Made by a program: the position numbers and the translations under genes. The notes under the pieces were generated by a model. The model saw only the letters and a program-made list of their open reading frames with translations. It was not told the DNA's origin and searched no databases. 64,000 bases of DNA from Tetracentron sinense. Taxonomy: Eukaryota; Streptophyta; Magnoliopsida; Trochodendrales; Trochodendraceae. The stretch is taken from assembly GCA_015143295.1 (NCBI GenBank), contig CM026560.1, forward strand, positions 5,024,501-5,088,500, in the 5' to 3' direction. Position 1 is the stretch's first letter. Each line of letters begins with the position of its first letter. Shown piece by piece: positions 14,994 through 64,000 of the stretch.

Positions 14994-15082
14994 TCAAGGA
15001 TTGAAGAAACTTGAGCCACCCACATTGATAGCAATCAGCACTGCTATACTGGTGATCACAGCAAGCCAAAATAATGCTGATC
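14994..15082 (-). CDS. NTMC2T5: NTMC2T5-type gene last exon: C-terminal hydrophobic helix and stop
   Basis: This 89-nt terminal exon follows the acceptor TTTGCAG. It encodes [29 protein letters not shown] and then TGA at 14994-14996. About 20 uninterrupted hydrophobic residues next to the C-terminus indicate a tail anchor or amphipathic membrane helix; the ending matches the family as I remember it. The frame is fixed by the phase-1 donor of the preceding exon, 111 bp away. Confidence 0.9.
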
Positions 15083-18000
15083 CTGCAAATGATTAATGTT
15101 GGAAAACACATACCAAAAAACAAGTCAACTAAAAACAAGATAGTGACTTAAAAACAACCACCTTCAATTAAAAAACATTTTGGAGGATATTACCTCCAGA
15201 ACCCTCTGAAGTACTCTCTAAATCAGAGGGTACAAACTCTGTGGTAAGATTACGTGATATTGTTGACTCTGGACTTCTGGCATCTTCAGGACGTTTGGTA
15301 GTTAATGTTTCAGATGCAACTATCCCTAGAAATTCCTCGCTTACAAGCAAAGCTGCTAGTACATCCATAAAAGATTCATTATCTGTTCCATGAGCACACT
15401 TCTTTTGATTCTTCTCATAAGTGGCTTCTGCTTCATCAGATTCAGATATCTCATCATCTGAAGCATCTGTATCCATGGATTCTTCCTCGGTCCCATCTTC
15501 TTCTTCATCCTCAACATATGCTTTATATGTCATTCGAAGTAGTATTTCTCCAGAAGATCCCTTTCTAAACAGTCCCCAACCTTTTTTTAAGACCACAATT
15601 CTGTCTGTTGGTACAGTATCTTGAAGAGATCCCAGCTCAACCTGGAAAAGAACAATCATAATAGGACTAAACTAAGTGTCAATGGAAACAATAAAAATTT
15701 AAACATGAATGTGAAAGTGTCAAAGTCGCAACAATTTTGGTCCAGAAATCACAGAGGAATAGGAGAAGAATGATGAGAGAACTTCATCCCTCATTAATCT
15801 CAAAAAAGTTGGCAAAGCCAGGCAACTTAGGGTTTTAATTTCACTCTGTTCCTCGAAGCCAATCGCAAACAAAAAGCTGGAACTGTTGATCGACTTCCTG
15901 AAACCAAGGGAACGGAAAGAAAGTTGATTTTACCACTGCACTGAAATTGATACACAGTACCCGTGGTACGGAAGATTGGCTCACTCTGAAAAGATAAGAT
16001 TTTCGGTTCGCACTCTATGGGATCCATACATAAATCAAATAAAAAAGGAAGGGAAAGAGATCAGAAAGGTGCGACTGATGTGAAGAGTCGCACGGGGTCA
16101 AGGGACCAAGGCAAGCCAAAGAAAACAACTAGTGATAGTGATCGCCTGATTGGAATGAAATCATATAAACATATTAACCAGAAAAAGAAGACCTGTCTTG
16201 CCACTTATCGGTTTTGCGATAATGTATTGCAAATAAAAAGGGTAGGTCCTAAGGAATTTACTTTCAGACATGGGTACTAAGCATTGTTACCTTTCCATCA
16301 TAAGGAATTTTTTTGCTGTACAACTCTAAGAATGCTTGGTCCGATCTGACATGCTTCCTAAAAGGTGTAAATCGAGCCACAATTACCTAAAGCATCAAGA
16401 CTTCTAATGGAGAAGGCAGACCTAGCAATCTCATCACGAAGCGTTTCTCCAGGTCTTGCAGAATGCTCATGTGTCGCAAGGTCCTGGTACCATCCAGGTG
16501 CAAATAACCCTGGAGGTAACTGCAATGAGCAGAAATCTCACTCACCGGCCTAAACGATGAGCACACACTCAAATGTGGATTAATGGTTACAGGAGGGAAT
16601 GACTAATAAGTTAAACACAATGAAAATTAGAATGACTAAAATCCTGCTACCTATAATTAATAATATAAAGCACTAATAATGGAACAAAACTATGTTTCAT
16701 CTTTACACTCCCAAGCCAGCTGAAGACTCCAAGGGAGAAGCAAATGCTTGGACAAAAAACCATGGTGAGCAATGGAGGTGAGGCCTGTGGTAAAAATATC
16801 TGCAACCTGATCATATATTCATATGTAGAGACATAAAGGGGATGCGCCTCTTGAGAGTTGACTTTGCCCGAACGAAATGGTGATCCTACTCGGAATGCTT
16901 GGTTGTTGGTTTGAACACAAAATACCAGATTTAAGCTCAATTTCATCACATTGATTATGCAGTAGAGAGGACATGTACCAAAAGAAAACCCAATTTCACA
17001 AGGAATATGACGATACCGAGAAATTTTCAGCAATAGTGACAGCCACAGCGATATTCGGCTTCGACACTACTTCAAGCAATGGTGCGCTACTTGTGACTAG
17101 AAACATGATTTCCATCGAAACATATGGAGTAGCCTATGGTGAAGCAGCTATTCCTGATCACTAGCCCAGTCGGCATCATAATAGGCAGAAAGAGAGACAT
17201 CTATGTGAATGCGGATTTTCGCCCACCTGGATTGGATTAAGAGTCACCACCTATTTATTCTAAAGGATAGGTCCCGGATATGGATAAAGTCTAATGGTCT
17301 CAATGAGAGTCTAGGTAAGAGATTCGAATAAGTCCCGGGGAAGGTGTTAGGCACCCCGAGGCCCCCATTTTACAATGGTTACCAACTCCCTAGGTATAAG
17401 CCAAATTAAGTTCAAAATTTATGAAATGCCTTAGTGTTTAGAGTATACTAAAAAATCCTAACTAGGGTTAAACCCAGGTTGGGTTGCCTACGTACTCACC
17501 GAGGTAAGATCAGACCGAGCGTAGTTCTGACACATTAGTCCATGCCGAGGCTAAGGGGAGTGTGTGTGTGCACCGGGGTGGCTAAGGTTTAGTCCGGGGA
17601 CTAAGGTTGGTTGACCAGGGAGGTCAAGTGCCTTGGGATGGTTAGGTTTTAGCCCAGAGCCAAGGGAATGGGCCCGAAGGTATAAGGATTGGGCCCGGAG
17701 GCTAGGATTTGGGCCCGGAGGCCTAGGGTATGGGCCCGGAGGCCTACAATTGGGCCCGGAGGCCAAAGGCTGAGCCCAGAGGCTAAAGGGTGCATTTAAC
17801 CATGGATAAAATTAGTTAACCATAGTTAGAGGTGAGTTAACCACGGTTAGGGCTACTAATCATGGTTAAAGGAAGTCTAAATCAGATTTTTTTGGTCTTT
17901 TTATGTTTTTTAGATTTTTTGATATTTTTAGGTATTTCCCAAGTTAGAATGATCTAACCGTGGTTAAAATTTAATCGGGTTAAGTTTAACCCCAGTTAAG

Positions 18001-21000
18001 GTTTCGGTCTGGTCTGAGATGGGCCCAAATAGCTTGACAGGGCCTAAAATGGCTTCCTACCAGGTCTGGCCCCTGTGCAAGACCCATTTAAGCAGATACT
18101 GGGATTGATAGTAAACTGTTTTCCGCCAATTCCAGTTCTTGACAAAACTGGAATGGTGGTAGACTGTTTACTGCCATTTCCAGTTTCTTCTGGAAATGGT
18201 TTTGCTGGTCAGGGAGGAGCTCAGGGGAGACATCCAAGGGTCCATGGTCCCTTGGGGGGGTTCAGGGGACTTGGCCTTGGTTTGGACCCAGGGCCTGATC
18301 TGGATTGGGCCCACATTGGTGTTTTATCAAAAGAACAGGAACATCAAGAATGTCGGTAAACTTATTACCGACATTCTGGGCCTCTTTAGAGGGGTCCATA
18401 CAACCCAGGGAAGGTAAAGGGAACTTAAATGGACCAAGTCCAGGCCCTAGAATGGGCCAGGGCCACCACACATATGTATATGAGCTACTGGAATAGGATG
18501 GTCCAGAATGGCGGTAATTATTCTATCGCTATTACTAATTTTTCCAAATTTGGGGACTTTCTCCCTTCTGCAACGAATCACAACACTTCCAGGGACCTCA
18601 TCATAGACTAGGGATGCCCTAGAAGATTCTGGTGAGTCAAGGGAGGTCTAGCACATGATGTGCACAATGTGTGGGGTGAATACATTAGTTGAGATGGGCT
18701 GCAAGTTCATAGGGACCCCATCTTGCCTATGGAGTGAGGCAGAGGGGTCCTTTATGACATAGAAAGTAGCAGGGCCAACCCTAGAATGGGACCAGGTCAT
18801 ACAGGCAAGAAAATGAAAGGGAAATGAGGGGAGAGGAGAGTCCCACCTGCTTCGAGATTCAACGAATGAAAAGGGGGAAATGGCCGTGTGAGTGTCCTTC
18901 TTAGTGAGGGAAGACCAAAGTCTACCCTCAGGAACAACTAGACACAGATGGCAGAGTCTGGCCTGCTATAGGGATAGGGCTCTCTCAAGCTTTTTCTGGA
19001 GATTTTCGGAATTTGAAGAGTGTGTTCTTACATAGGATTTGGCATGGGGAGAAAGCTTAGGGGAGGGCTTGGATTTATAAGCATAGGGCTTAAGGACACC
19101 ATAGGGATTAGGACGGAGGGTTGGTGAGGAGTTTAGAGGCGTAGGAGGCTGGCTGGAGTGGTTCAAGGGGCTCAGAGTTTGCTTTTATGCAAACTCTAGG
19201 AATGGCGGCATAGTTGTCAAGGCGACCAAGCGACTTGAGGTGACAAACCCCATGGACGGCTGAGTCGGTAGCCTGAGGAGCCCGAGATGTCGCCTGATAA
19301 ACTTTTTGTTACAGAAATTCCCCCTAAAATGAGATCTATGTATGATGTATTTTCTTTTATAAGAGACCCTACATTCATATAAATTACATCATTGTCAAGA
19401 AGTACTTTGATAGAACCATTGCTAGAGACAGTTCAAAGAATAATAAAAGGGGATTTCAAGTGTTGAAAAAAAATTGAATAAAAATTAATTCTACAATGAC
19501 TACTCAAAGAGGAGAGAGAGATTGTTAGACAGTCCAACAGGAAAAAGAGAGGGGAGGCTAGAAGGAATTATACTTAAGATTAGTAATAAAAATAATATTG
19601 ATAAGTAAAATATATAACTATAGGGTCTACACTTGTTTAAATTATAAAAGACTCCTTTAAATATGAGTTTAAGAGAGTTTGGGGGGGAGGCTAGAAGGAA
19701 TTTGAGGCACTTAAAGGCTCTTAATTTTTTATTGGGCCACCTGAGTTAGCTGTAATTTAACAACCATAGAAAAAAACAAATAAGGACTGTATGTCCACCC
19801 ATAAACAGAGGGACAGAGATCATTTGGTCCACCCATTGAGTGAGAGAATAAGTTAACATGATAGAAACATACGTGACACCGTTCGTCCTTTTTTTTTCTT
19901 CTATCTTCAAACTTTTTTTATTAGATATACAAATACTAACATATTATATTGTAAAAGACATGAGAAGCATATAAAATAGTATATTTTTTTGTTACCGAAC
20001 AATCATATTCAAATAAATAAATTTTTATATCCTTAAACAATAATAATATTCTATATAATAAATTTTTAATAATGACCGCCTGAGGCGGCCAGTTGCCTGA
20101 GCCTAGCTGAGTGCCTGGTCGCCTAGGCGACTGCCTGAGGCGACACCTTTAACAACTATGAATGGCGGTAGAAATTCTACCGCCATTCCTGATTAATTCC
20201 AAAAAATGGGCCTGGCCCAGTACGAAATGGTGTTGCACATGATACGATTTTGCCACAAAAGGAATGTCGGTAAAGTTTTTACCGACATTCTGGAAAATTC
20301 AAATTTTGGGGCCTAGATTCCCTCACAGGGCTTGGCTGGCTACAGGTCGTGGCCTAGGGGCCTTGGCTTTGGTCCTATGTGGGCCTTGGACCCACGGCTT
20401 AGGTTTTTAGGGTTAGGGTTGGACTAGGGCTAGCTAGGGTTGACCCTAGGGTTTGACTAGGGTTAACCTAGGGTTTGTTTAGGCAACCATGGTTAAGGGA
20501 GGGGTGTAAAAATTGGGTGCTTACAGTTGCCCCTCTTTGTCAGAGTATCAAGTTGGCAATTGAACGACAAAGACTAGAATCATCCTATTTTTATATCGGG
20601 GAGATGGATTTTGAGAGAGATATGATGACATTTTGTGGGTTGTCGTCCCGAAATGCAGGTGATGAATGCAATGGATGATGTAATGAATGATGCAAAAAAT
20701 GATGCTTTCAGGATTAACTAGATAGCATATGCTGGGGAGATGGGAGATAAAGTCAAGGATGGTTGAGGGACTCAAGCTAAGGAAGTGGCATGCCCACAAA
20801 GGCACTAGCCGGATAGATAAATGAGAAGGCATGTCCCAGGGGCACTAGCCAAACTGCTGAAGTGGCATCACCCGGAGGCTCTAGCCAATGATAAGGCATC
20901 ACCTGGAGGTGCTAGCCAAAGATGAGGTATCACTCAAATGTGCTAGCCAGATCGATGAAGTTGCATCACCCGGAGGCGCTAGCCACATCGATCAAAGGAC

Positions 21001-24000
21001 ACGCGAGGCGTCAACAAGGGGGACACACGTGGGTGTTGAGGATTACGGCATGTCCTGGAGGCACTAGCCGGATCAATCAAAGTGGCAAAACTCCTAAACC
21101 CTAACCCTAAAATTCATTTTTTATTAGATCTTTGTTGTTGGTTTGTGTTGTTTAACCACATTATTGTTTAAACACCTAATTTACATGCATGTTCCAAAAT
21201 TTAACCATTGTTGAGCGTAAAGAACTTTTCTTGAAATCCTCGATTAACAAAGAAATTCAATTGATAATTGTTCTAAATCCCTAAACTGGTCGAAGTTCCT
21301 ACTTTCATTACGATCACGCAATTTAGTTTGGGAAATCCTTTACTACGGGATTGTGATTTAAGCTAGGACATTGCTAATATCCTTTTCGAAGTTCTTTATG
21401 GTGATGGTGAAATTTAGATAATTTTATATTTATTATTACTGCTGAAATTTGAATTCTAATCTCACAAACACATCATCCTAGGTTAGTTGCATGGTCCTAC
21501 GTCAATACTTATGTAAGGTACATCAATATTAGTGAATCATGCATTGTCATTAGCGTTAACGTCAGCACACATCTTTGACTCTCTTCTCATTGCATCTCTT
21601 ATATACATTAATGTTATTTTTTGACTCTCAAATGTGTATTAACATCTATTTTAATATTTTCTGAAGTTTCAGTGAAAATTCTATGTTTTCACTATTTTTT
21701 TCAATTTTCCCTCCATGTGTGGTATTGTTCCCGCGATATATCTTTTTTCCATGGCTCAATATGTCATGCAGTATCGACATTTAAAACCTTGCATATACCC
21801 AAGCATAGTTACCAAAAAACGGTATTATACCTGTATAGTACTTGTATAATAGGTTTAGGAGGGTTGCCGTGTTACATATTTTACGTGTGTCGCCGTATAA
21901 TACCCGATTTATAAGCGAATTACGTATTAAATGCGTACAATACACATATTTTTGTTGTACTTTTACCGTGTCAAACACATTCTGTATTAAATGATTGTTA
22001 TTAATTAATATCATGATTTTTATTTATTTATAATTGATCATTATTTTTTAATTTTCCCGTACTTTTGTCGTGTTTTTGCCGTATAACACTCGTACTTCCC
22101 GTCCGGATCATTGTTGTATTATACCCGTACTTGGTAACTATGCACCCAAGTCCTTCATGCCAGACATAGAAGAGAATCTGGCATTCAAAGACACAAAGTC
22201 ACTTGTTAGATTACCACTGGTAAGAATTCTGTCAACAAGATAACCCTGTAGCTATGAGTCAAATGAAGAGAGTGATACGCAACACATCGATAAAACCCAA
22301 GGCTGAACATGAACAAACACAATCTGTCAAGCCAGGCCCAAGTGGTGCATGTTTTAAGCCATACAAAGATCGCTTTAGTCCACATACAAGATCATGACTC
22401 CTGCCCTCGTCAAGACCAGCAGTTGTTCGATGCAAACTCCTCCAAATTTCCATGAAGAAAAACATTCTTTACATCCATCTGATGTAAAAGCCACTGAACT
22501 TGTTTGCAAGAATCAACGTTAATTGAATTGTACCTGATTTAACGATGGAACTGAATGTCTCTCCATAGCCACTGCTCTCTTCCTGTGTGTAGCCTTTTGC
22601 AACTAAGCGAGCTTTAAAGCACCTGATAGAATCAACTAACTTATATTTGGCAAGACAAATCCAATGACAACCAACTACATTTGTGTCTTTAGGACGTGGA
22701 ACACTGTCCCATGTATCATTTCAATATAGCATTGTCATCTCTTCACTCATTGCATCTACCCAACAAGAATCAGTAGAGGATTTTTTGTAGCTCATAGGTT
22801 CAACAACTTATGGTCACAATTCTGAGAGCAGTAGGAGGGTCCTTGGTGGTGCACTGACACGTACCTTTCTTGAGGAAAACTGAATATCTATATACTGTCA
22901 GAGTATACAGGACAGATTTAAGTGGGAATGCACGGGAGTGTATGGTATGGCCCAAACGACTATAAATATTTTCCATCCTTTTGGCAAGAGTTGAATGATG
23001 TGACTTGTGAGTGTCAGATGGAGCCTAACCTTACTTGGTGTCTAGGTGGAGACTTTAACACAATTCGGTTCGTGCAGGAAAGGAAAGTAAAGGAAGTTGT
23101 AGTATAACAGAAAGATGAGAGGGTTTGGGGATCTTTTGGAGTGACATTCTTATCAGTAGCCCACTGAATAAGACTTAATTAACCTGGTCCAACTTAAAAG
23201 AGTCCATCCCTAAGTTGGTTGGATAGATTTAAGTTCAGTGCAGCTTGGGAAGACCACTTTTCTAACATGGTCCAATGTTTGCCCCCTAGGCCCACTTAAT
23301 ATCATATTTCCATCATCTTGGAACCTATTAGCATAAGAACTGACTGCAGCCCATTCAGATTTGAGGAAATGTGGGTTAGGGATCTAAGTTTTATGGAGGT
23401 AGTTGAGGATGTGTGGACAGAAAAAATTTCTAGGGGAAAGCTAGTATTATCTTTGGGTTGAAGCTTAAGGATGAAAAACAGAGATTTAAGGGATGGATAA
23501 GGAGGTTTTATGCAATACAGATCTTCTGGAGGATGGGATGACTAGAAGAAGGGATCTAAATATGGAGCTCCAAGGTTTGGTAGTTAGGGATGAAATTAAT
23601 TAGGGGCAAAAATCTAGAGTGAGTGGGATTGAAGAAAATTTTTCATAGTTGACACTTGGCTTAAAGATGAGTACGAGGTTAGTGAAGTGATTGTTTAATT
23701 TTACAAGAGGTTGTACATAGAGAATTACAACTATAGACCCAAATTAAATGGCTTGCAATTTGATCTTATCCCTGACGGCCAGAGGGACTGGCTGGAGAGA
23801 CGATCCAGGAAGAGGAGATTAGGCTGAACATTCAAGAGATGAAAGGAGATAAAGCCCCAAGGCCCGATGGATTCACATTATCTTTCTATAAATGTAATTT
23901 GAGAATGATTGGGCCTGATTTTATGAGAGTGATTGAGGAATTCTACAAGTAACGGAGCTTTGATGAGGTCTTGTATAGCACTTCTTTGGTCCTCATTCCT

Positions 24001-54000: not shown

Positions 54001-57000
54001 CCACTGAACTGTTCCCCCGCCCAAAAGTAATCACTGAACTGTTCATGGAGGCCTCCCAGCCGAATTATTCGGGAATAGTTCACGAACTTTGTTACAATGG
54101 GGTAAATTGCTTAGTTAGGGATTAGAGAACCCTACCAGCATTTTATATAAAGAGAGAACATTACATATATGCCCTTTTACAAGTATATCCCCGATATTAC
54201 ATATATCAACAAGTACTAGAGCTCAAGTTAACCTAAATGAGGCCCACACTTGAAAAAAAGCCAACTGCAAGCCTAGAACCCAGACAAGATATTTACAAGC
54301 ATTGCTATCATCTAGGTTAGGTTGGTAGTTATTTGACTTTTATATTTATATTTTATTGCACCCATAATGGAGTCGTAGATAGTCAAGTGAAATCCAATCC
54401 ATCAAACAATTAGTTCTATGGACATAAATACCTTACAAACATGCATCACATTTTATGGGCTCATAGTAAACATAAATGCCTTAGACAACACTCCCCATAA
54501 AGTTGCTAAATAGATGTCAATCATTTTCAACTTGTTTAAGATCCCTAACAACCTAGTTTTATTTAATCCTTTGGTGAGAACAGCAGCTAACTGTTATTCG
54601 GATGTCACATAAGGAGTACAAATCTGCCCAGACTTTTGACTTCTTTCTAATGAAATGACAATCTACTTCAATGTTGAACCAAGTTATGTACATTGCATAT
54701 AGAAGCCTTGTTAGAACAGTAAAGATTCACAGGACATTAGACCTCAAAACTCATTTCCCGTAGTCTCATCTAAATCCAAAGTAGTTCACAAACACCATAG
54801 AGCAACCATAGGTTCCTTTTTACTCATCCACATTACTAATTTTCCACCAACAAAGTACAGCAACCTGAACTTGATCTACGATCAGAAGTAGAACTTGCTC
54901 AGTCTCCATCAGTAAATGCTCCAATCTTCAAATATCCATGATTAGAAAATAGAAATCCTCTCCCTAGTGAATACTTGAGAAACCTTAGAACTCTGTAGAC
55001 AACCTCCAAGTGTGTAAACCTTAGTGAATGCATAAACTGACTATAACACTCATTACATAAGTAATGTACGGCCTGGTAAGAGAGATAAATCAACCTGCCC
55101 ACAAATTGCAGGAATCATCCCGCATCAATCAAAGGATCATCATCATGATTATTCAACCCATGATTTTGTTCAATAGGAGTATCTATCAGTTTCTGCTCCC
55201 AGTTTCCTTGAGTATGTCTATAACATATTTTTGTTGAGAGATCAAAATGTCCTTAGACTATGCAACCCCGATGCCAAGAAAGTACCTTAACAAGCCAAGG
55301 TCTTTGATCTCAAACTCTCTCCCGGTATTCCTAGAGAAAATGAATTTCTTTTTTATTATAACCTATTACCATTTACCACTATATTATCTACATACACAAT
55401 AAGACCAGTACTGCTACTTTGAGTGCGTCTAAGAAACAATGTGTGAGATCAACCTGATACTGTACATAGCCCACTCTCTTAATAGCATGCTGAATCTATC
55501 AAACCATGTTCATGGTGATTGTTGCAACCCGTATGGTACTTCAGTCTTCACACTTTCCCTTGATTACCAGAGAGCTGAAACCCTAAAGGACTCATCATAT
55601 AAGCCTCTTCCTGCAAACCTCCATGGATAACGTATTCTTGGCATCCAATTGGTGTGGAGGTCAAGATAGATTTGCAGCCCAAATAAAATGACTAATAAAG
55701 TTCATCTTAGCTACAAGAGGAAAAGTCTCTTTGTTTCTATCTCATAAGTCTACATATATCCTTTTGCAACCAATCTCGCCTTAAATATGTCCACTGATCC
55801 ATCTGCCTTGTGTTTTACTACGTAGACTCATTTGCACCCAACTGGTTGGTTTTCTTTAGAATGATTGACTAACTCCCAAGTTTCATTTTTTTTCTAATGT
55901 CTGCACCTCCTCACACATTGCCTCCTCCTACGTGGGATGAGACAGAGCATTTGAGACACTAGATGGAAAGGACACTGTGAAAATAGAGGCTATAAAGGAA
56001 TGATAGGATGGAGACAGAGACTGGTAAGATATAAAATTAGATATTGGATGCTGAGTACAAGTACACATTACACTTTCTTTTACGAATTACAATTGGAATA
56101 TTAGAATCATCAATTGGCTGAATATTACCGGAAGATAATTCAAGGGATAAAGAATTACCTGAATTAAAGATATTACTTGAATCCGAGATGATTTGCAGAG
56201 GTGGCTTAGCTATCCCAAGTTCCGGTTTCTTTTCCCTCACATAAACTCTCAACTCATTCTCCTTCACACCCACACTTCCTGTACAGGACTTCTAATACTA
56301 CATAATGTCAACAAAGAATGGATGAACAAAAACCAACATAGGAAGAGGAAGAGACCTTTCTCATTACCATCACTCTCCCCCTTAAGAGAGGTCCCTGAAG
56401 AAGGGGAAAAAGACGAATTCAGTCAACAAAGAATGGATGAACAAAAACCAACATAGGAAGAGGAAGAGACCTTTCTCATTACCATCACTCTCCCCCTTAA
56501 GAGAGGTCCCTGAAGAAGGGGAAAAAGACGAATTCAAAGAAAGTGACATCCAAATTTCTTCCTTGACTCGGACTAATAGCACTTATAACCTCATTAAGAT
56601 GATGGATAGTCAAGAAAGATGCACTAAAAAGCCTTTAGATCAAGTTTAGTCCGATCCGATCGATGGATGTAAACAAAACAAACACAACCAAAAACTTTAG
56701 GAGGAACAAGATAAAGAGATCAACTAAGGCAAAGGATTTAAACAGGAGTTTTGAAGTTCAACACTCTAGAAGCTTTCCTATTGAAGCGATAGGATGCTAT
56801 AAGAACTGCTTCAAATACTACTACTGGTGTGAGCAGCAGAGACGGTTGTTGGAACATCCTCAAGAAGATATAACCCTCCAGCTTCACGACCACTGGCAAT
56901 CATCTTCTTCAAACTCAAGCCCTGAACACACAGTGAGAAGGAAAGATGGTGACACTACAATTCAAATTCTCTGTGATGTAACTAGCAGACAACTAGTTAG

Positions 57001-59101
57001 TTAAAAATTATGAACATGAAGAACAGTGGACAAGAGCAAGTTACGAAGGGCATTAACTTTCATAGTTTCATTTACTAGAAATAGACGAAAAAGACTAATC
57101 AACAATCCTAACTTTCTCTTTCAAAACAAACATGATACAACAAAAACAAAGATGACATACCTTTTATGTGGTCTGGAGCACTGGAATCAATGATCCGTGA
57201 CGGAGTAAGAGTACTAGAAGTAGCTTGGAAGGTAGATGCATGAGTACTTATGTGCGCAAGAGAAGATACTGAAGGGCTCCCCAACTATGACATCATACAA
57301 CAAAGGCTCACCAGTTATTTTTCTGAGATAGTCACCATCTTCTTGAAAGAAGAGACAACTGTATGGGTGTATTATGGTTCTGTACTAAATGAGACTCAGG
57401 AGTATCTCTAGGTTGTGTAGCACTGGTGGATGCAACAATTTGTGCCTCAGACGTTCCTGACTGACTAAACCTTGTAGAACAACCAAAAAATCCCAACATG
57501 TTTCTTTTGTATGCCTGAATCTCCCACAGTGAGTACACTTCAACTTATCTTTGTCTTCACATACAATTTTTGATAACTTCTTTCCTCCCCCTCTATTACC
57601 TCTCAAAGTAATAATAGATGAGACAAGAGCAGACCGATCAGAAGGCGAAACATTATATTGTTGAGTAGCATTTCGCCTGTTTAGACACGATGTAAACTAG
57701 CTTTGCCTACTCTCCTACCTCTGCAGTCTGCACGTATTCATAAACCTAATTCAAAGTTGATAACACATCCTTACGGAGAATCTAAACTCTGACTAGTTCA
57801 AATTCCTAATTCAAACTAGTTGGAAACTCGAATACCCATGTACTCTCAACTTTCTTCTTATACTCAATTACATCAGCTTGATAGACAGGCTTGAAACTGT
57901 CGTAGTGATCAAGTTCTTCCCACATACTCTGTAGAGAGGCAAAATAGTTTGCCAAAGTCTTTCCCCTGGATATGATGGGGCAATATCCTGACTCAAGTGA
58001 TAAACCCAAACAAAATTCTGAACTTGGGAGTATGTATAAGCAATAGTATCCTAAATTTCTTTAGTTGTTGTCAGGAAAAAAAAATCCCCTACTAATCTCA
58101 TGCTACATAGAATGTATGAGCCAGGACATCACAGTCACTTTATTAGTTCCCATTTTTAATGAGTAGAATCCGATATTTAGGTTCCACTATTATACCATTG
58201 ATGTATCAAAATTAACCTCTTATCTCCAATGAACATCCTTGCTGATTAAAACCACTCTGAATAATAGATATATTCAATTTCATTTTTATAATTTGGAAGC
58301 CTGGATTGTTACCTTGTGAGTTCATGACTCTTATGCCTCTAAGATGCCCAGGATTGGATGAACTCAAATCATTTCTACTGCTGGCTGTGATTTGTGAACT
58401 TTTACACTATTCCAGAAATTGTTCAAACTGATAAATTTGGTCTGATAACCATATTTCAGCCTAGGTCCCTTACTAGGGTCATCCAAACACCTTCAACAGC
58501 ACTGGTTTTCACTATTTACTGCAGAAACACAGGTCTACACATACCAAATAACCAAAAAAACAGCAAGAAACCACTTCAGGGAAGGAAAAAACTGCAACTC
58601 CCGCAATTCTCATCCAGACTCAATGAGATCACCTTCATTCTCTTCCAAATATTAAAACACATCAATCCGAAACAAAGAAATACATTAAAAAATTTATAAG
58701 CCCTACAATCAGACTAATTAAAATCTGAATTATTTTTCTTGAATCTGATTTTAGGGTTTTTATAACAATCCAAATAGCCTAAAAAGATTCCACTATAGAG
58801 TAAGGTGAAGAATACCATTCAAAACATACCCAAACCTAGGGGTGTATTCAAGCTGAACTGAGCCGAGCTTGGCCCTGCTCGACTCGGCTCGGCTTGAAAT
58901 GTTAAAATCTAGGCTCGAGCTAAGCTCGGCCCGATCTGTTGCTCGAAAAGCTCGGCTCGAATCTAGTTCACTTGGCTCGAGCTCAAATTGATTCAAACTC
59001 GAGCAGAGCACAGCTTGATTTATTAACAAATTATATTTAAATAAAAATTATAATATTTTTTAGTTTATATATGTATAAATAATTATTATATTATTAATAT
59101 A

Positions 59102-59132
<31 letters not shown>

Positions 59133-62100
59133 TTTTTTTAATTTTTTATTTAACATTCAAGCCCGAGCCAAGCTCAAACCGAGTCGAATCAAACAGGCCT
59201 TGGCTCAAGCTCAGTTTGAACACATTTTCACACTCCAAAAATCAGCTCGGCTCGATCGAACCTAATTTTTGAGCTCAAGTTCAACTTGATTGAGCCGAGT
59301 TGAACTTCGAGCTAGCTCAATTTAGATACACCCTTACCCAAATCAAGGTGTGCCAAAGGGGGGTGGCTGTATAGTTGACATCAGTCATATGGCCAAATGA
59401 CGTCAGCCATTAGGTTCTTCTGCCTTATTTCTTTTCTTTGATCCTTCCCTCTGAGTTGAAAGCATAGTTGATTCTATGATTTTTAGATGAAAGAAGGGGA
59501 GAACATGAAGAGAAAGGGGGGAGCATGAATAATGTCTTACGCCCCCCTAGATTCTTTTTATTAAAAACTTCTTTAACATGAACATAAATGCCCTTATAGA
59601 GAAATATCACATGTTATGGACTAGTAAAACGTATATGCCATATAAAATACATAATGCCAGAGTAATCATTGCCACAAGCATAGAGGGAGTCATAAGCGTC
59701 CATACAGTAAAATTGATTTTTGACAGAATGAAAAAGACATGGCAGAATTGTGACTATAGAATACGACTCTAATCAAAATGCATAAATTTGCCTCACTATG
59801 GGGATGGTGAGAAGATATCCATTGTTTTTAGTACAAAAGTTCCTATAAAATTGGGAAATTCCCTACCTTTTGAGTGCGGTTTGAACCATTGATTGACCTA
59901 ATGAGAAGTAACCAATTAGGTGTATGACGGAACCTAGAAATCGATCACTAATCCAAATTGAGTATGAATTATGGCAGCAAGTGATTGAGTTCTGTAGTTC
60001 CTCATATAAAATTGACTCTAGAGATATGGTAATATGGATAAGATAAAAAAATTTGAACCGCTAACAGAACCGAAAAAGTGCCCCTTGCTTCAAAGAGATG
60101 AAGTCGGATTACTCACGTTATTCACAATTCATTTGATGGTCAGAGGAGAATTGAAAGCTAAGCAGTGGTAATTCAGTGTATAAATAGATCATGTTCATAG
60201 ATTAATGAAAATGGGCAGAACCTCTATTTGCCTTTGCCATTCTATAAGTCTTCCTTTTTTACTTGCACTATTGACACTCCCTTTGGAAGCCTCTACCAAT
60301 TTGGAAAGTAATTTAAAAGCCCTGGCTAAGTAGTTGTAGTTAGGTGTCTATATAGATCATGTTCTTGGATTAACGAAAATGTGCAAAAGCTATATTTGCC
60401 TTTGCCATTCTATAACTTCCTTTCTCTTATGGTATCACCACTCCCTTTAGAAGAATCTACCAAATTGTAACTTGATCTAAAAGCCATATTTTGACCTAGA
60501 CGTTTTGGCATGCCCCTAATAACCAATGAATCGCAAGTGTTTTTCCTTGTGTAGACCCTAACAGGAACAAGTGGCATGGGGATCATATTCGAGCCTTTTT
60601 TCATGCTTTTTCCAGTGATCTTTAGGAAGCCACAATCAAGAAGATTTCCCCTTCCTTCTTGAAAGGAAGAACGTGAAATTCTTTTTCTTTGCGCAGGGAC
60701 CAGTAGAGTGGCTCTAGCCTTCTCATGTCAGGATATGGATTGAATAAGAAATACTCCTTTTTAGGTAATCTATGAGTTTCTGCTTAATCAATTAGTTATG
60801 AAATACCATTAACTCTAATGCTTAAACTCATTATTTCAGAATTTTTATTATGTTAAATTTTTTAATTAAATTTACAAAATAAAGTAATAAACTCTACTTA
60901 AAAAGGCAAAATAGTTCATTTTCTTTAAAAATCCCCAAAATTATGAGTTAGCTTTTCCACTAGGAGCCAAGCTCCTAAAATTCTAGTAAGATCTAATGGT
61001 CTGCCTTGCCTAGGCATTTTGACAACATTGGCCTTAAAGTGAAGCCTATTTTAACTGTGTTACCTCAAGGGCATGAAGATTCAGAGTTAGCCCTGGGAGA
61101 TTAGCCAAACATCGGAACATTTATTCAATTACCTTTCAGTAGATGTTTTCTGTATAGGCATAGCCAATCGTGCAAATTATGAGGCTATACAAGGTTGTAG
61201 AGAGCCTACATTTGTATTTGTAGTTCTCTTCCCTAATTACTTTTATAAATGGATCTTTAGTCACTATTTATCAGGTTCAAATATATCTATTAATTTGTGA
61301 AACATATTTGTTAATCAGCAATATTAGGAAGAGATTGTCTAGAAGTACAACTAGGAAGAGAAACATATAGTTCATTTTCTTTAAAAATCCCCCAAATTAT
61401 AAGAGCGCTTTTTCACTAGGAGCCAAGCACCTACAAATTTAGTAAGATCTAATGTTCTGTCTTGCCTAGGCATTTTGACAACACTGGCCTTAAAGAAAAG
61501 CCTATTTTAACTGTGTTACCTCAAGGGCATGAAGATTCAGAATTGGCCCTGGGAGATTAGCCAAACATTGGAACAATTATTCAAGTACCTTTTGGTAGAT
61601 GTTTTCTGTGTAGGCATAGCCAATCATGCCAATGATGAGGCTATACAAGGCTGTACAGAGCCTATATTTGTATTTGTAGTTCTCTTCCCAAATTACTTGT
61701 ATAAAATTGGAACTTTAGTCACTATTATCAGGGTGAAATATATCTATTAATCATATCTGTTAGTCAGCAATATTAGGAAGAGAAATTCTTGTGAAGAAGT
61801 ATGACTATCTACAATACAACTTGCTTGAGCAAGATCTTCCTCACACCGGGTGAGAATGCCCAAAAAAAATCTCCAAACTCTCACCAAATGAATGGTTATT
61901 TTTGGAGCTCAGAGACCAACAGATGTATAAGTGTGAAAGTAGGACATAAGAAGACAGACAAGGCAATCCAAGCAAAAATGACAGAATGGCAGATCCCTAT
62001 ACGATACAAGTATACCAGAATCTAAAATGCAGTATCAAACAAGCCTTAGTTCATATGAGCATGAAGAATATTAGTGTAAAAATAAAGATTGAAAGTAACA

Positions 62101-62445
62101 AAGTATAGGAAAAGCAGGAACTGAAGGTCTGTCCAAACAGAGAATCGATGTCCCCGTGACAATTATCTAACGTTTAAGTTTTTTTAAAACATGAATATTA
62201 TCATTCCATGGATGGTGAGAAAATATATAAATGAGATCATGAGAATAAGTAGAATTGCGAAACAAAATGGCTTCCAAAAGAACACTTCTTGCCAAGTTTC
62301 ATCAAATCAATAAAGCAGGCAAACATTACCTTCTAGTACAAAGAAAAGGAGAAAAACAAAAATAAAAAAAGTGTTTGTACAGATTATAGGAGCCAGATTA
62401 AAATGTAGAAAGAGAAGAGGACTCACATTGAGAGAACGGGAATTG
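14994..62445 (-). CDS. NTMC2T5: NTMC2T5-type SMP/C2-domain membrane-tether protein, 3' part of gene (six exons)
   Basis: Six exons on the minus strand give about 323 residues: 62427-62445, 45578-45783, 45120-45229, 44910-45008, 15194-15641 and 14994-15082. Every internal border is GT/AG and the phases match across all five introns (16,643, 348, 111, 29,268 and 111 bp). In order, the protein shows the end of the SMP lipid-binding domain ([18 protein letters not shown]), a C2 domain ([14 protein letters not shown], then [16 protein letters not shown]), a post-C2 segment ([26 protein letters not shown]), a long acidic stretch, and a hydrophobic C-terminal helix ([19 protein letters not shown]) ending in SSFFNP. 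From memory, this order and these motifs match plant NTMC2T5 proteins, relatives of synaptotagmins and tricalbins that tether membranes and are thought to move lipid at contact sites. The N-terminus and promoter lie beyond position 64000. I saw no disabling change in the exons. Confidence 0.9.
15194..15641 (-). CDS. NTMC2T5: NTMC2T5-type gene exon: end of C2 domain and acidic linker
   Basis: This 448-nt exon follows the acceptor TTTTCCAG. It begins [20 protein letters not shown] and [20 protein letters not shown], which closes the C2 fold. A strongly acidic run follows ([20 protein letters not shown]), then the conserved block [20 protein letters not shown], then a Ser/Thr-rich linker. It ends at phase 1 before GTAATA. 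Without splicing the frame would stop a few codons later, so the splice is what adds the C-terminal helix. Confidence 0.93.
15812..16576 (-). pseudogene. Captured fragment of an unidentified gene, with introns, inside a Copia LTR
   Basis: This 765-bp block interrupts the 3' LTR of Copia fossil 1 and is not part of it. On the minus strand, 16387-16519 is a clean 133-nt exon: acceptor CATTGCAG, then [20 protein letters not shown] and [20 protein letters not shown] plus LDAL, then donor GTAATT. An open segment at about 16276-16386 reads [20 protein letters not shown] then KIPYDGK. A third coding-looking piece near 15840-15900 reads [18 protein letters not shown]. Retained intron borders argue for capture at the DNA level and not for retroposition. 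I do not recognise the parent gene. Confidence 0.5.
17640..17790 (+). repeat. Short tandem array of GGGCCCGGAGGC units in the Gypsy LTR
   Basis: Five to six imperfect copies of a 22-25-bp unit containing TGGGCCCGGAGGC. The array is GC-rich and each unit carries the GGGCCC palindrome. Confidence 0.75.
18348..20295 (+). repeat. Set of GAATGTCGGTAA / GAATGGCGGTA hairpins in the Gypsy LTR
   Basis: Inverted pairs occur at about 18348-18379 (GAATGTCGGTAA...TTACCGACATTC), 18508-18530 (weaker, AATGGCGGTAAT...), 20160-20189 (GAATGGCGGTAGAA...CTACCGCCATTC) and 20262-20294 (GAATGTCGGTAAA...TTTACCGACATTC). Stems are 11-14 bp with 2-7-nt loops. Confidence 0.75.
19209..20160. mobile_element. hAT element, 952 bp, inserted in the Gypsy LTR, with 8-bp target duplication
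   Basis: The ends are CATAGTTGTCAAGGCGACC and its approximate inverse ...CCTTTAACAACTATG. An exact 8-bp duplication, AATGGCGG, flanks it (19201-19208 and 20161-20168). GCCTGAGGCG/CGCCTGAGG motifs form long imperfect stems at both ends. No transposase is present. The insertion site lies in one of the GAATGGCGG hairpins of the LTR. Confidence 0.92.
20785..21080 (+). repeat. Minisatellite with GGCATCACCCGGAGGCGCTAG units
   Basis: Seven or more diverged copies of a unit of about 34-44 bp of the form GGCATCACCCGGAGGCGCTA plus GCCAGATCGATGA. They lie just after the Gypsy LTR, probably in the leader or untranslated part of that element. Confidence 0.8.
21081..21803. other. Unassigned sequence between Gypsy and Copia remains
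   Basis: A short stretch near 21093-21110 (CTAAACCCTAACCCTAAAA) resembles two telomere repeats, which is too few to mean anything. The rest is AT-rich. The point where Copia fossil 1 resumes could not be fixed but must precede 21804. Confidence 0.35.
21804..22142. mobile_element. hAT-type MITE, 339 bp, inserted in Copia fossil 1
   Basis: Inverted ends are CATAGTTACCAAAAAACGG and ...CCGTACTTGGTAACTATG. The flanking 8-bp sequences TACCCAAG (21796-21803) and CACCCAAG (22143-22150) differ at one base. The interior is AT-rich with repeated CGTATAATAC motifs. Confidence 0.82.
22890..26160 (+). mobile_element. L1-type LINE, 5' truncated, inserted in Copia fossil 1
   Basis: ORF2 remains run on the plus strand. 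The C-terminal half of the endonuclease comes first ([31 protein letters not shown] at 22922-23107). Reverse transcriptase follows with [17 protein letters not shown] (near 23840), [29 protein letters not shown] (near 24120) and FADDSLVL (near 24535). A zinc-binding RT-associated region comes last ([20 protein letters not shown], near 25550). It ends TTACAATAAAAGAAAAA. The frame is broken by many stops and shifts, so the copy is dead. It splits the Copia integrase and RT regions and runs opposite to both Copia fossil 1 and the host gene. Confidence 0.85.
28377..29399. other. Intron sequence between two Copia fossils, nothing recognised
   Basis: No coding or transposon signal could be supported. 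A stretch at 28865-29117 is open on both strands for about 65 codons without recognisable similarity. It may be background of the original intron. Confidence 0.4.
29741..30540. mobile_element. hAT-like MITE copy A, split by a second hAT MITE
   Basis: It begins TATGGTTTCAAGTATC and carries CCGGCCCAATACGTATTGG and AACCAATACACT. It resumes after the inner element with ACACTGGCATGGGTAGG. The same order is seen uninterrupted in copy B (30541 onward), which shows where the insertion happened. Confidence 0.7.
29804..30400. mobile_element. Inner hAT MITE, 597 bp, with 8-bp target duplication
   Basis: The ends are CAAGGTTTAAAAACTCGG and ...GTGATTTTTGAAACCATG, imperfect inverted repeats. An exact 8-bp direct repeat, AATACACT, flanks it (29796-29803 and 30401-30408). 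The same family recurs at 63560-63911 and probably at 12536-12922. Confidence 0.9.
30541..30850. mobile_element. hAT-like MITE copy B, adjacent to copy A
   Basis: It begins ATGGTTTTAAGTATCGATAC, matching the start of copy A. It contains GAACCGATACACTGGCAT uninterrupted and ends in GATACGTAACAGTATCGC. Copies A and B lie head to tail with no spacer. Confidence 0.65.
30851..33209. other. Unassigned, partly LTR-like sequence
   Basis: No gene is seen. The part from about 32400 to 33190 has the look of a Copia LTR and leader: a TATATATATGTGATCTC promoter-like stretch and a pyrimidine-rich run. A 2-copy 20-bp tandem with AAGATTGAATCTTTRAAGATC lies at 32909-32950. No paired LTR, primer site or duplication was found to confirm this. 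Confidence 0.35.
33830..34440 (+). mobile_element. Copia fragment in opposite orientation within Copia fossil 2
   Basis: The plus strand encodes a protease-region motif ([15 protein letters not shown] near 33868-33912). The pre-integrase motif [19 protein letters not shown] and [16 protein letters not shown] lie further on (34119-34412). It therefore comes from another Copia copy or an inverted piece of the same one. Broken. Confidence 0.7.
34700..35269. other. Intron sequence, nothing recognised
   Basis: AT-rich sequence without a supportable element. A-rich runs near 34879 and 34951 may be old LINE or SINE tails. Confidence 0.35.
35270..35655 (-). mobile_element. Small Gypsy fragment (region between protease and reverse transcriptase)
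   Basis: On the minus strand, motifs such as [17 protein letters not shown] and [20 protein letters not shown] match the linker between protease and reverse transcriptase in plant Gypsy elements. Only a few hundred bases remain, next to the 3' tail of an L1 LINE. Confidence 0.55.
35656..38860 (-). mobile_element. L1-type LINE, 5' truncated, degenerate
   Basis: Minus-strand ORF2 remains include YWKQKSRV (near 38800), [20 protein letters not shown] and [12 protein letters not shown] (38298-38504). [14 protein letters not shown]-like reverse transcriptase (37958-38359), [15 protein letters not shown] (near 37300) and a C-terminal RNase H-like segment ([20 protein letters not shown] near 36150) follow. 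The 3' end is A-rich (T-rich on the plus strand, 35658-35690). Stops and frame changes are frequent, so the copy is old. Confidence 0.82.
39056..41046 (-). mobile_element. L1-type LINE, 5' truncated, younger copy
   Basis: An A tail (T run 39056-39074) marks the 3' end on the minus strand. Reverse transcriptase motifs are well kept: [19 protein letters not shown] and [14 protein letters not shown] (40719-40976). The thumb and connection region follows (40105-40584, 39686-40228; [16 protein letters not shown]), then the zinc-binding C-terminus with [20 protein letters not shown] (near 39350). ORF segments up to 180 codons indicate a fairly recent insertion. TATGTTAT at 39046-39053 and 41047-41054 may be the target duplication, and the exact 5' end is uncertain by about 20 bp. 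Confidence 0.87.
41067..42432 (+). mobile_element. Long Copia-type LTR (SIRE-like), fossil copy 2
   Basis: It starts TGTTAGCCTCAAGG and ends TTTTAATTTGCCATAAACCC then TATTCA, followed by a C-rich run and CTCTAGGG. It matches 12989-14382 along its length. It carries the palindrome ACTCGTCGACGAGT (41609-41622) and a second one near 41690 at the place where copy 1 has CCGTCGACGG palindromes. No coding region is attached. Confidence 0.65.
43203..43298 (+). repeat. Tandem duplication of a 47-48-bp unit
   Basis: Two near-identical adjacent copies of AGGCAAATCCTACTAATTTC...GTTGAAAACTA inside the LTR-like block. Confidence 0.85.
43540..43800 (+). repeat. Four spaced copies of CTTCTACCACTCTAGGTAGA
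   Basis: Four copies of about 40 bp containing TTCTACCACTCTAGGTAGAG and CATTGGGCAT occur at irregular spacing (about 50-90 bp). Each carries the inner inverted pair CTACC...GGTAG. Confidence 0.85.
44434..44904. other. Intron sequence next to the C2 exons, nothing recognised
   Basis: No element is supported. This is the 5' start of the 29-kb intron and probably retains original intron sequence. Confidence 0.4.
44910..45008 (-). CDS. NTMC2T5: NTMC2T5-type gene exon: second half of C2 domain
   Basis: Exactly 33 codons encode [20 protein letters not shown] and then [13 protein letters not shown], the later strands and third loop of the C2 domain. Acidic residues stand in the VKDSLGFTD loop. The acceptor is TTTGGACAG and the donor GTAAAT. 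This donor opens the 29,268-bp intron. Confidence 0.93.
45120..45229 (-). CDS. NTMC2T5: NTMC2T5-type gene exon: central C2 domain
   Basis: This 110-nt exon encodes [20 protein letters not shown] followed by [17 protein letters not shown]. The DPYV motif with an upstream acidic position is the hallmark of the first calcium/lipid loop of C2 domains. The acceptor is TTTTTTCAG. The donor, GTGGAT, is weak, but the exon ends exactly on a codon boundary and joins in frame to the next exon. Confidence 0.93.
45413..45437. repeat. GT microsatellite
   Basis: A (GT)n run of about 9 units followed by ATAAATACACACGC, inside the 348-bp intron of the NTMC2T5-type gene. Confidence 0.85.
45578..45783 (-). CDS. 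NTMC2T5: NTMC2T5-type gene exon: end of SMP domain and start of C2 domain
   Basis: This 206-nt exon is entered at phase 2 and left at phase 1. It encodes [33 protein letters not shown] and then [18 protein letters not shown], where the first beta strand of the C2 domain begins. The acceptor is TTACTAG and the donor GTAATG. The 16.6-kb transposon-filled intron lies upstream of it and a 348-bp intron downstream. Confidence 0.93.
46254..46600 (-). mobile_element. RTE-like LINE fragment (C-terminal end of reverse transcriptase)
   Basis: On the minus strand, [20 protein letters not shown] follows degraded DKWMRGKI and a C-terminal YG.C.W pattern upstream. This is the end of a plant non-LTR reverse transcriptase, probably of the RTE group. 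Only about 350 bp remain. Confidence 0.65.
46601..47253. other. Intron sequence with short repeated motif
   Basis: TTCTTTAGATGG and TGATTAAAAGG-like motifs recur at about 46590-46620 and 46672-46700. No gene or flanked element could be supported. Confidence 0.35.
47945..48870. repeat. Two-level minisatellite inside Copia fossil 3
   Basis: At 47975-48125 a unit of about 36-40 bp (GTTGTGCCTGACAGGATTTG-like) repeats. From about 48050 to 48870 a longer unit of about 225-245 bp, marked by TGTTCCTGATAGACAGG at about 48128, 48352 and 48595, repeats three times. It is built from the same GATCAGATGTGTATCCTGG words. It occupies the place where the central pol genes would be. Confidence 0.75.
49002..51738 (+). 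mobile_element. Solo Gypsy LTR, 2,737 bp, with 5-bp target duplication, inserted in Copia gag
   Basis: The ends are CGTAAGCAC (for TGTAAGCAC) and GGTGTTTACA. The 5-bp direct repeat AGAGC lies on both sides (48997-49001 and 51739-51743). Copia gag sequence resumes on either side. It shares GAGTCGCCACCTA, TTAGGCACCCC and the GGTGTAAAAAT ending with the LTR at 17204. The GC-rich part at 50500-51340 is open in several frames for up to 145 codons, with no recognisable domain. A CT microsatellite lies at about 51636-51655. Confidence 0.88.
52708..54099. mobile_element. hAT element, 1,392 bp, inserted in the Copia fossil 3 5' LTR
   Basis: The ends are CATAGTAACAAAGTTCG and ...CGAACTTTGTTACAATG, inverted repeats of about 17 bp with one mismatch. 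The exact 8-bp duplication GGGTAAAT flanks it (52700-52707 and 54100-54107). Near the right end, TTCGCGAACTGTTC-like stems repeat. No transposase was seen. A 77-codon ORF at 53452-53685 has no recognisable similarity. Confidence 0.93.
54212..54480 (-). mobile_element. Possible 3' LTR of Copia fossil 4
   Basis: The sequence ends AGACAACA immediately before CTCCCCATAAAGTTG (54487 onward), the typical purine tract and LTR junction read on the minus strand. No matching 5' LTR was confirmed, although 59575-59680 shares short similar words. Confidence 0.4.
54481..58400 (-). mobile_element. Copia fossil 4, broken
   Basis: Minus-strand remains appear in the normal order: gag ([20 protein letters not shown] near 57900), CCHC knuckle ([16 protein letters not shown] near 57510), a degraded integrase zone (56000-57300), then RT end and RNase H start ([20 protein letters not shown] near 55000; [15 protein letters not shown]). 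Many breaks are present. It abuts Copia fossil 3. Confidence 0.72.
56307..56536 (+). repeat. Tandem duplication of a 115-bp unit inside Copia fossil 4
   Basis: Two apparently identical adjacent copies start GTCAACAAAGAATGGATG and end AAAAAGACGAATTC. The lack of divergence suggests a recent event compared with the decayed host element, or an assembly artefact. Confidence 0.85.
58401..58836. other. Intron sequence after Copia fossil 4, nothing recognised
   Basis: No clear LTR border or gene is seen. This could include the leader and 5' LTR of Copia fossil 4 in degraded form. Confidence 0.3.
58837..59336. mobile_element. hAT-type MITE, 500 bp, with 8-bp target duplication
   Basis: The ends TAGGGGTGTATTCAAGC and ...TTTAGATACACCCTTA are inverted. 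Both arms are rich in GAGCTCGGCTCGAGC words. The flanking 8-mers CCCAAACC (58829-58836) and CCCAAATC (59337-59344) differ at one base. A TA microsatellite (about 59098-59126) lies in the middle. Confidence 0.85.
59345..60170. other. Intron sequence, nothing recognised
   Basis: AT-rich sequence with no supported element. A short stretch at 59575-59680 has words in common with the possible LTR at 54212-54480. Confidence 0.3.
60177..60500. repeat. Direct repeat of about 150 bp, two diverged copies
   Basis: ATAGATCATGTTC...GAAAATG, TATTTGCCTTTGCCATTCTA and CACTCCCTTTRGAAG occur in order at about 60182-60320 and 60350-60490. The copies differ at many positions and by small gaps. Confidence 0.75.
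60908..61780. repeat. Direct duplication of about 410 bp with 456-bp offset
   Basis: Copy 1 (about 60908-61335) and copy 2 (about 61365-61780) share AGTTCATTTTCTTTAAAAAT, CCTTGCCTAGGCATTTTGAC, GTGTTACCTCAAGGGCATGA and TCAGCAATATTAGGAAGAG in the same order. Divergence is modest. No TIR, tail or coding domain was found, so the source is unknown. Confidence 0.85.
62427..62445 (-). CDS. NTMC2T5: 19-nt micro-exon of the NTMC2T5-type gene
   Basis: On the minus strand the motif CTCCAG precedes this segment and GTGAGT, a consensus-grade donor, follows it. The 19 nt finish one codon, encode IPVLS and leave two bases that join the next exon's first base to make Met. The result reads (A)IPVLSM and then [10 protein letters not shown], which is the residue order I recall for this family. 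A pyrimidine tract (TTCTTTTTTCCTG) lies upstream of the acceptor. The main caveat is size: a 19-nt match could arise by chance, but the phase, both splice sites and the residue order all agree. Confidence 0.75.
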
Positions 62446-62667
62446 CTGGAGTTTTGCCCGTAGCATGAACACAGGAAAAAAGAATGGAAATTAATATTAG
62501 TAAGTTTCAATATTAGCTTTAGATGAAAGGTATGTAAATTGTTGAATGATAGATACGATTACACTATGTTTCAATTGGACAATAACAAGTCAAGTACAGG
62601 GAATGTGGGGTTTGAATTCAATGAGAAGTCAAATTATGCAGCAGTGTATAAGTTTCTCATCAAATAT

Positions 62668-62912
62668 TGTAGCAATGGGCCCAAGTCATTAAGCCCATAG
62701 TCTTATGTTATTTATTAGAATATTATGTCTACACATTATTAAGGGTATTTCTGTCCTTTACTAATGCATTATAATAATACAAAAATGAGAGGTAGAGAAA
62801 ACCCTCATCTCTTTTGATCCTCTTCCCAAAACAAACCTTTCTCCTTCTCTACTCTTCTTCTCCAGCACAACTAGGGCTTTATTTCTTTTGATTTCTACTT
62901 GGTATCAGAGCC
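62668..62912 (+). mobile_element. Copia 5' LTR and primer-binding site, plus strand
   Basis: The LTR begins TGTAGCAATGGGCCC and ends near 62897. TGGTATCAGAGCC at 62900-62912 is the initiator-Met primer site. It is related in layout to the LTR at 12106. It lies about 220 bp from the micro-exon, antisense to the host gene. Sequence beyond 62912 shows only a short gag-like start and then decays. Confidence 0.75.
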
Positions 62913-63551
62913 AGATAAATGTCAGAATACACTTAGGGGATCAAGACGGACAAGCCGACCAAAAAGGGAGGGAGAACTGTTGCTGACGCCAGTAGCCGTG
63001 CAGACAGATCATCTCGTCCTTGAATGTCCCGGGAAAGAGAAGATGATTTTTCAGGAATTGTAGTGATTTTTTCAGAATTTTTTAAAGATGTTTTGATGGT
63101 TGTTTTGCACTCTTGATTCCCAAGAAGAAAAAAAAAACAGTTTTGAAGAATCTGTTTCGTGCAATCAATTGAGGTGTTTTTTGCTGTCATAAAGTGGTTG
63201 TTAACTTGTTTTTAGTCCATTTTAAAATTATGAAGCTAATGAAACAAGTTTGGAATGGATCTATGAAGTATTGAAAGCACGGCATCGATTTTTTCAGAGC
63301 ATTATTGATGCACCTTGCTGTTTTTTGTCTTGATTGGGTTGTAAAGTCCTAGATTTCCTATGTAAAGGTGTTGTTTGGGACTTGAAACTCTTTGTGCGGG
63401 CTTTTTTGTGTGAAACAGCCTTGTCTCATTCCTTTTGGGTGTTGGTCACGTGACCAAATATTTGAAGCTTGCTTGAATTTAGTCTTTATTGTTCTGGAAG
63501 TGACAAAATGTCTTGAATTAGTGGTATGGAAGGAATTCCTCAAATGCCAGA
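62913..63551 (+). other. Degraded Copia leader or gag sequence
   Basis: This lies directly downstream of the primer site at 62900, so it is by position Copia internal sequence. No domain is recognisable. The 60-85-codon open frames on either strand look accidental. Confidence 0.35.
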
Positions 63552-63559
63552 GGTACAAG

Positions 63560-63911
63560 CATGGAAATAAAAATCGCCAAAACCAATACGAAATGGGAGA
63601 TATGTATAGGTATCAGTAGACCCCTATATAATATTTAAAATGATACGAAACGGGCGATATATATGATTTATTAGTTATTTATATTTTACTTCATTGTGTA
63701 ATTGTAATTGTGTATGTTACTTTGTCTTTGAGTTACTTCTCATGGCTTTATATTTGGTAAATTTGGTCCTATAACTCATTTGACTTTTTTTTAATTTTTT
63801 TTTTTGAAATAAAAGGAATTATATGTATCGTCCGAAACCATTAATTCAACCAATACATATAGGTTTCAGTTGGGACCAATACATCCCCCGAAACCGTATT
63901 TTTAATCCTTG
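63560..63911. mobile_element. hAT MITE, 352 bp, with perfect 8-bp target duplication
   Basis: The ends CATGGAAATAAAAATCGCC and ...CCGTATTTTTAATCCTTG are inverted, and GGTACAAG flanks exactly (63552-63559 and 63912-63919). The ends and the GTATCG/CCGAAACC interior mark it as the same family as the element at 29804. Confidence 0.9.
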
Positions 63912-64000
63912 GGTACAAGAAATCAAGTGTATGGGAATGCTACTAATGATTCTCCAAATTTACAAATTTCAACTGTCATGTTAGATAGGAGAAATAATTT

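Follow-up and report, generated by a model that had tools for sequence, protein, structure and literature searches.

The window analysed here is a 64,000-nt stretch of the Tetracentron sinense genome (C10:5024501–5088500 of a 1.16-Gb assembly). It contains six of the eight exons of a gene on the minus strand; the remaining two, exons 1 and 2, were found in the right flank, 27–37 kb past the window edge. All introns have GT–AG ends, and the eight exons join in frame to a stop-free reading frame of 2,037 nt, coding for 678 aa and spread over the 86,017 bp of C10:5039494–5125510. As start codon we take the ATG that comes first in the open frame of exon 1; the same ATG is present in a second copy of the gene, on contig C4. 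In order, introns 1–7 measure 8,793, 28,706, 16,643, 348, 111, 29,268 and 111 bp. The 113.5 kb around the locus contain no runs of N. The exons and the three longest introns are listed in gene order, in window coordinates:

101010–100187, minus: exon 1, 824 nt, in the right flank
91393–91152, minus: exon 2, 242 nt, in the right flank
62446–91151 (in-window part 62446–64000), minus: intron 2, 28,706 bp (2,868 bp in the C4 copy)
62427–62445, minus: exon 3, a micro-exon of 19 nt with the 28,706-bp intron 2 on one side and the 16,643-bp intron 3 on the other
45784–62426, minus: intron 3, 16,643 bp (4,559 bp in the C4 copy)
45578–45783, minus: exon 4, 206 nt, end of the SMP domain and start of the C2 domain
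45120–45229, minus: exon 5, 110 nt, C2 domain
44910–45008, minus: exon 6, 99 nt, C2 domain
15642–44909, minus: intron 6, 29,268 bp (6,145 bp in the C4 copy)
15194–15641, minus: exon 7, 448 nt, equal in length in the C4 copy
14994–15082, minus: exon 8, 89 nt, with the stop codon and, before it, a hydrophobic segment at the C terminus

A preliminary description of this DNA had proposed a single gene with transposon-filled introns. That much holds, and so does a good deal of the detail: the six exons it reported are all where it placed them, with GT–AG ends; its five intron lengths (29,268, 16,643, 348, 111 and 111 bp) are exact; and the exons are intact, as it said, the frame running without a stop through all eight. 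Its extent for the gene was too small, since exons lie beyond 62445 and the span is 86 kb, not 47 kb. Nor are there just two giant introns; three exceed 16 kb, and a fourth long one measures 8.8 kb.

The gene was also rightly described as one of the SMP/C2 type, for both domains pass their Pfam cut-offs: the SMP domain matches PF25669 (MUG190-like SMP; 57.7 bits, cut-off 35), and the C2 domain that follows it, at residues 413–510, matches PF00168 (46 bits, cut-off 22). The best solved relative is the SMP–C2 structure of E-Syt2 (4p42; E 1e-11). An exon-by-exon search of the genome with a different SMP profile, PF17047 (SMP_LBD), listed matches on C11, C1436 and C221, and this locus was absent from among them. 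Proteins of this family tether two membranes and carry lipid between them, a role that is predicted for this protein as well. The data support a plant SMP/C2 protein rather than a subtype number, and the type 5 label, NTMC2T5, taken over from the preliminary description, is a candidate assignment; literature searches on that label, and on SMP proteins together with chloroplast terms, found nothing. Hydropathy peaks at residues 148–166 (2.02) and 652–670 (2.43), and these two segments look like membrane anchors, of which they are our candidates. Five segments exceed 1.6 in the window copy and four do in the C4 copy, one of them (at 289; 2.18) within the SMP domain. Plant NTMC2 type 5 proteins are, likewise, SMP/C2 proteins with transmembrane regions (PMC1976326). 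The figure legends of that paper give types 4 and 5 plural transmembrane regions, and types 3 and 6 a single N-terminal one; the hydrophobic segments at 148 and 652 agree with the former arrangement.

The sister copy on C4

Searches of the genome with DNA (exons 4–6 and their introns) and with protein (exons 2–7) returned the window locus, one locus on C4, and one further, weak match on C7 (42% over 76 residues). The C4 gene lies at 31983603–31960118 on the minus strand, spans 23,486 bp, and has an intact frame. It, too, has eight exons, in the same order and with identical lengths, including the 19-nt micro-exon (31976516–31976498). Such a recurrence is, in our judgement, more than chance, and since the same eight exons sit together on C4 within 23.5 kb, the distant exons at the window locus belong together.

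The two proteins align without gaps and are identical at 571 of 678 positions (84%). By the NG86 method dN is 0.082 and dS 0.264, a ratio of 0.31 that is pairwise and without an outgroup, so that constraint on the window copy is inseparable from constraint on the C4 copy. For exons 7–8, compared in the same pairwise way, the ratio is 0.61 (0.110/0.180), which indicates that the tail of the protein is weakly constrained.

Where the copies part company is in their introns. Those of the C4 copy measure 3,153, 2,868, 4,559, 4,480, 128, 6,145 and 116 bp, and total intron comes to 21,449 bp there versus 83,980 bp in the window copy. A transposon-expanded gene is one whose introns far outmeasure those of a close copy and contain transposons in the extra length, and this is what we find at the window locus. 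In intron 4 the difference is reversed—4,480 bp in C4 (31967253–31971732) versus 348 bp in the window copy—and growth has thus not been one-sided.

Transposons and older sequence in the long introns

The features recognized in the long introns, in so far as they lie within the window, are these (no strand is given for repeats and shared blocks):

15712–28376, minus (the gene's orientation): degraded Copia-type LTR retrotransposon, 12,665 bp, with TG...CA ends; intron 6
28377–29396: ancestral block of intron 6, which in a whole-genome search matched only itself and C4
33238–33796, minus: Copia-like remnant, so read from its frame, with no Pfam match; 75% identical to 67674–68220
34104–34409, plus (opposite to the gene): Copia gag_pre-integrs remnant (PF13976, 47.9 bits)
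40722–40985, minus: remnant of a non-LTR-type reverse transcriptase, RVT_1 (PF00078, 39.8 bits)
42000–42470 and about 42855–43900: two dispersed repeats; intron 6
46361–47247: block of intron 3 common to C4; an old dispersed repeat makes up the first 230 bases, and beyond it only C4 was matched
47251–54213, minus: Copia-type remnant (PF14244, 24.5 bits, cut-off 24.1); intron 3
52708–54099: 1,392-bp TIR element nested in the right LTR of the preceding remnant, with inverted ends and an 8-bp duplication, GGGTAAAT
58300–60175: dispersed repeat modules; intron 3
63560–63913: dispersed 354-bp repeat with many copies at 81–90%; intron 2

The large element in intron 6 is the best defined. It is flanked by a 5-bp target duplication, GAATG before and GAACG after, and at the corresponding point in C4 the empty site, ATGAATG-CAGTCC, is unbroken; together these place its insertion after the duplication that produced the two copies. 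Its LTRs occupy 15712–16707 and about 28148–28376. A 763-bp stretch (15812–16574) occurs only in the left LTR and could be an insert there or a deletion from the right LTR. A piece of Copia reverse transcriptase (RVT_2) is present inside the element at 22472–22720, minus strand. Only 70 bp of native intron separate the element from the exon-7 acceptor.

At least 35 other copies of the repeat that surrounds the TIR element at 52708–54099, counted by eye among the matches listed, lack the element at that point. In the flanking part of intron 2, one LTR pair (68498–69952 and 78689–80132; K2P 0.092) lies inside another (67221–67459 and 85126–85366; K2P 0.16). The preliminary description had put the transposons at ten or more, in several layers. 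For the part of the gene inside the window, some evidence does support about ten modules, and most of the open-reading-frame pieces do not match Pfam: of 20, four score above the family cut-off, one below, and 15 not at all. As to layers, the window contains one clear nest, that of the TIR element; a second, at 15812–16574, can instead be read as a deletion, and a third lies beyond the window, in intron 2.

Against this background of insertions, matches to C4 in colinear order form a chain along the gene. Next to exons it reaches into the long introns (at 15642–15711, 61302–62426, 45784–46080 and 99264–100186, for example), and the blocks in the middle of introns 3 and 6, shared with C4 in the same order and mostly non-repeat, mark the long DNA between the exons as genuine intron. 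Weak links included, the chain aligns 1,876 of 29,268 bp in intron 6, 2,354 of 16,643 bp in intron 3 and 876 of 28,706 bp in intron 2. Two of the weak links, 33260–33521 and 54315–54359, lie in or beside transposon sequence; a further link, 88060–88227, is a candidate anchor in intron 2. Much of what remains of the long introns consists of insertions. A whole-genome search with 36000–37500, in intron 6, matched that segment alone.

The 354-bp repeat (63560–63913 here) has a counterpart in intron 2 of the C4 copy; separate insertions probably account for the two. We considered whether the 24,146 bp that stand in intron 2 here, against 81 bp in C4, mark a single insertion site, and rejected the idea because the left anchor of this gap is that same dispersed repeat. 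No ancestral anchor is proven for the central part of intron 2.

Several tandem structures were seen besides: a perfect head-to-tail duplicate of 115 bp (56307–56536), which is either very recent or an assembly slip; a duplicated unit of about 420 bp, its copies sharing 89% identity, in intron 3 near exon 3 (60911–61783); and local arrays at 3206–3915 and 48027–48759. Neither Rfam nor tRNA scanning found anything in the window. CpG ratios (inserts 0.36–0.56, ancestral intron 0.22–0.44, exons 0.57) are uninformative on methylation.

Ages, constraint and alternative explanations

Of eight intron anchors compared between the two copies, seven have a K2P of 0.27–0.37; the eighth, in intron 5, has 0.11. 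The LTRs of the intron-6 element differ from each other by 0.26 and 0.19 in their two parts. With 0.16 and 0.092 for the pairs in intron 2, these relative dates fit insertion during the lifetime of the gene pair. A substitution rate of 3.25e-9 per site per year has been published for T. sinense, along with an age of 59 Myr for the later duplication and collinearity of chromosomes 4, 10, 18 and 23 (PMC7709256), the last bearing on this pair on the assumption that contigs C4 and C10 carry the published chromosome numbers. At that rate the dS of 0.264 corresponds to about 41 Myr, and it falls below the value of about 0.38 expected for an event of 59 Myr. The K values of 0.21, 0.16 and 0.092 give the elements ages of about 32, 25 and 14 Myr, to be read as upper bounds because LTRs often evolve faster than this. 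Single genes vary in dS. Across exons 5–6 and intron 5 (44904–45246 versus C4 31966916–31967252), identity between the copies is 88–95% in 60-base steps, and conversion between them is possible there.

We put at about 0.9 the probability that this is an intact nuclear gene for an E-Syt-like SMP/C2 tether, one of a pair, lengthened by transposons in its introns. The pair would have formed by duplication; LTR retrotransposons and other elements would then have entered the long introns, some nesting in others, until the gene reached 86 kb compared with 23 kb for its sister. The whole 86 kb would be transcribed and the giant introns spliced out to restore the 2,037-nt reading frame. The elements themselves may be held in silent chromatin, much as silent chromatin controls intronic transposons in Arabidopsis genes that contain them (PMC4417168).

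It is improbable, we think, that the window copy is instead a recently silenced duplicate, with clean exons, giant introns that already block productive splicing, and a protein supplied by C4. The preliminary description had named a second intact locus that supplies the transcripts as grounds for doubting its gene; a shorter, intact copy does exist on C4, and the window copy is intact too. Silencing would also find a means in the gene-oriented LTR element 70 bp from the exon-7 acceptor, which could provide 3' ends of its own. Against it stands the state of the reading frame, which in 2,037 nt has neither a stop nor a frameshift. Simulated under neutrality since the insertion in intron 6, the gene acquires a mean of 6.6 to 8.5 premature stops, and only 3, 0 and 1 runs per 2,000 remain free of them at 0.095, 0.105 and 0.129 substitutions per site; an intact frame would not be expected over that period without selection. 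Since the younger, inner element of intron 2, the mean is 3.4 stops, and 3% of runs are stop-free. Five intron anchors have accumulated 58 gap events and 688 substitutions, versus no gap at all in the alignment of 678 residues, and the splice sites are canonical.

Much less credible still are two readings in which there is no such gene. In one, the exons are real and the giant introns arose in assembly, by the joining of sequence unrelated to them. Repeat-rich DNA is prone to misassembly, the 115-bp tandem duplicate could be a local error, and faults are conceivable in an assembly of 24 chromosomes that a second Tetracentron assembly, of 908 Mb in 19 chromosomes, disputes (PMC8810787). Against this reading stand the single-copy blocks common with C4 inside introns 3 and 6 and a matching target duplication with its empty site, and there are no N runs. 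The other breaks the locus up into two or three unconnected genes or gene fragments, the result to be expected from annotation software that allows only short introns; its appeal is that gaps above 10 kb between exons are rare (1 of 71 in the sample described below). But the phases join exactly, the SMP and C2 domains are divided between the exon groups, and C4 holds the same eight exons within 23.5 kb. We give each of these only the slightest chance, and return to the expanded, intact gene.

Intron length in this genome and in other plants

How unusual such introns are was gauged from 71 gaps between adjacent exons of myosin and kinesin genes in the same assembly, each gap setting a maximum for the intron, because small exons could go unnoticed inside it. 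The median is 216 bp and the mean 1,071 bp; seven gaps exceed 5 kb and one exceeds 10 kb. For myosin, 66 of 91 matches were used, leaving aside a near-identical second C4 copy, some weak rows and one single hit, and the binning split one gene on C8; for kinesin, 41 of 77 ordered gaps, those with few unmatched residues, were kept from the matches listed among 162, and one excluded gap measured 14,944 bp. Introns of several kb are evidently not rare here, and three above 16 kb in one gene are uncommon. At C4:1809748–1818297, two sets of myosin exon matches with equal scores lie 4.4 kb apart; either the gene was duplicated in tandem very recently or the assembly contains the stretch twice.

The published annotation of T. 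sinense, made with MAKER on an assembly of 1.17 Gb and 24 chromosomes of up to 65 Mb, has a mean intron of 283 bp (PMC7709256), a figure that could be a different statistic. In Trochodendron, the sister genus, the mean is 2,308 bp (PMC6859433). Set against that value and the 1,071 bp of our sample, 283 bp suggests that long introns may be missing from Tetracentron gene models generally, in agreement with the warning in the preliminary description that annotation would split this gene. If gene models were broken at such introns, the annotation's numbers of genes are affected, as are analyses of gene families based on it. More tentatively, and with the odds against it, the pair may amount to a natural experiment in transcription-unit length—86 kb with a micro-exon isolated by 45 kb, versus 23 kb—in which long introns and chromatin restrict or slow the output of the window copy; the published gene set, for its part, may lack most introns longer than a few kb.

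Compared with the NTMC2 genes of model plants, the introns here are far larger. The phenomenon itself is known, and long introns also occur in conifers; the locus is a new, well-anchored and datable example of it, not a new kind. What it offers is a before-and-after picture, in which retrotransposons lengthen a gene whose frame stays unbroken and a sister copy serves as control. Grapevine likewise has large, Copia-rich introns, and there 99 EST clusters each matched several consecutive annotated genes (PMC3058033); such split models are predicted for this gene as well. What differs is that here a duplicate shows the state before insertion at one site, and relative dates besides. In Chloranthus and magnoliids, long introns and genes above 20 kb are attributed in large part to LTR elements (PMC8626473), and length is LTR-driven here too, in another lineage and, for our part, in one gene. 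Conserved plant micro-exons, upstream of which introns are often detained (PMC8831610), resemble exon 3 in that a tiny exon is kept, in this case in both duplicates; unlike the 15-nt class of that paper, ours is 19 nt long, and its flanking introns are 28.7 and 16.6 kb.
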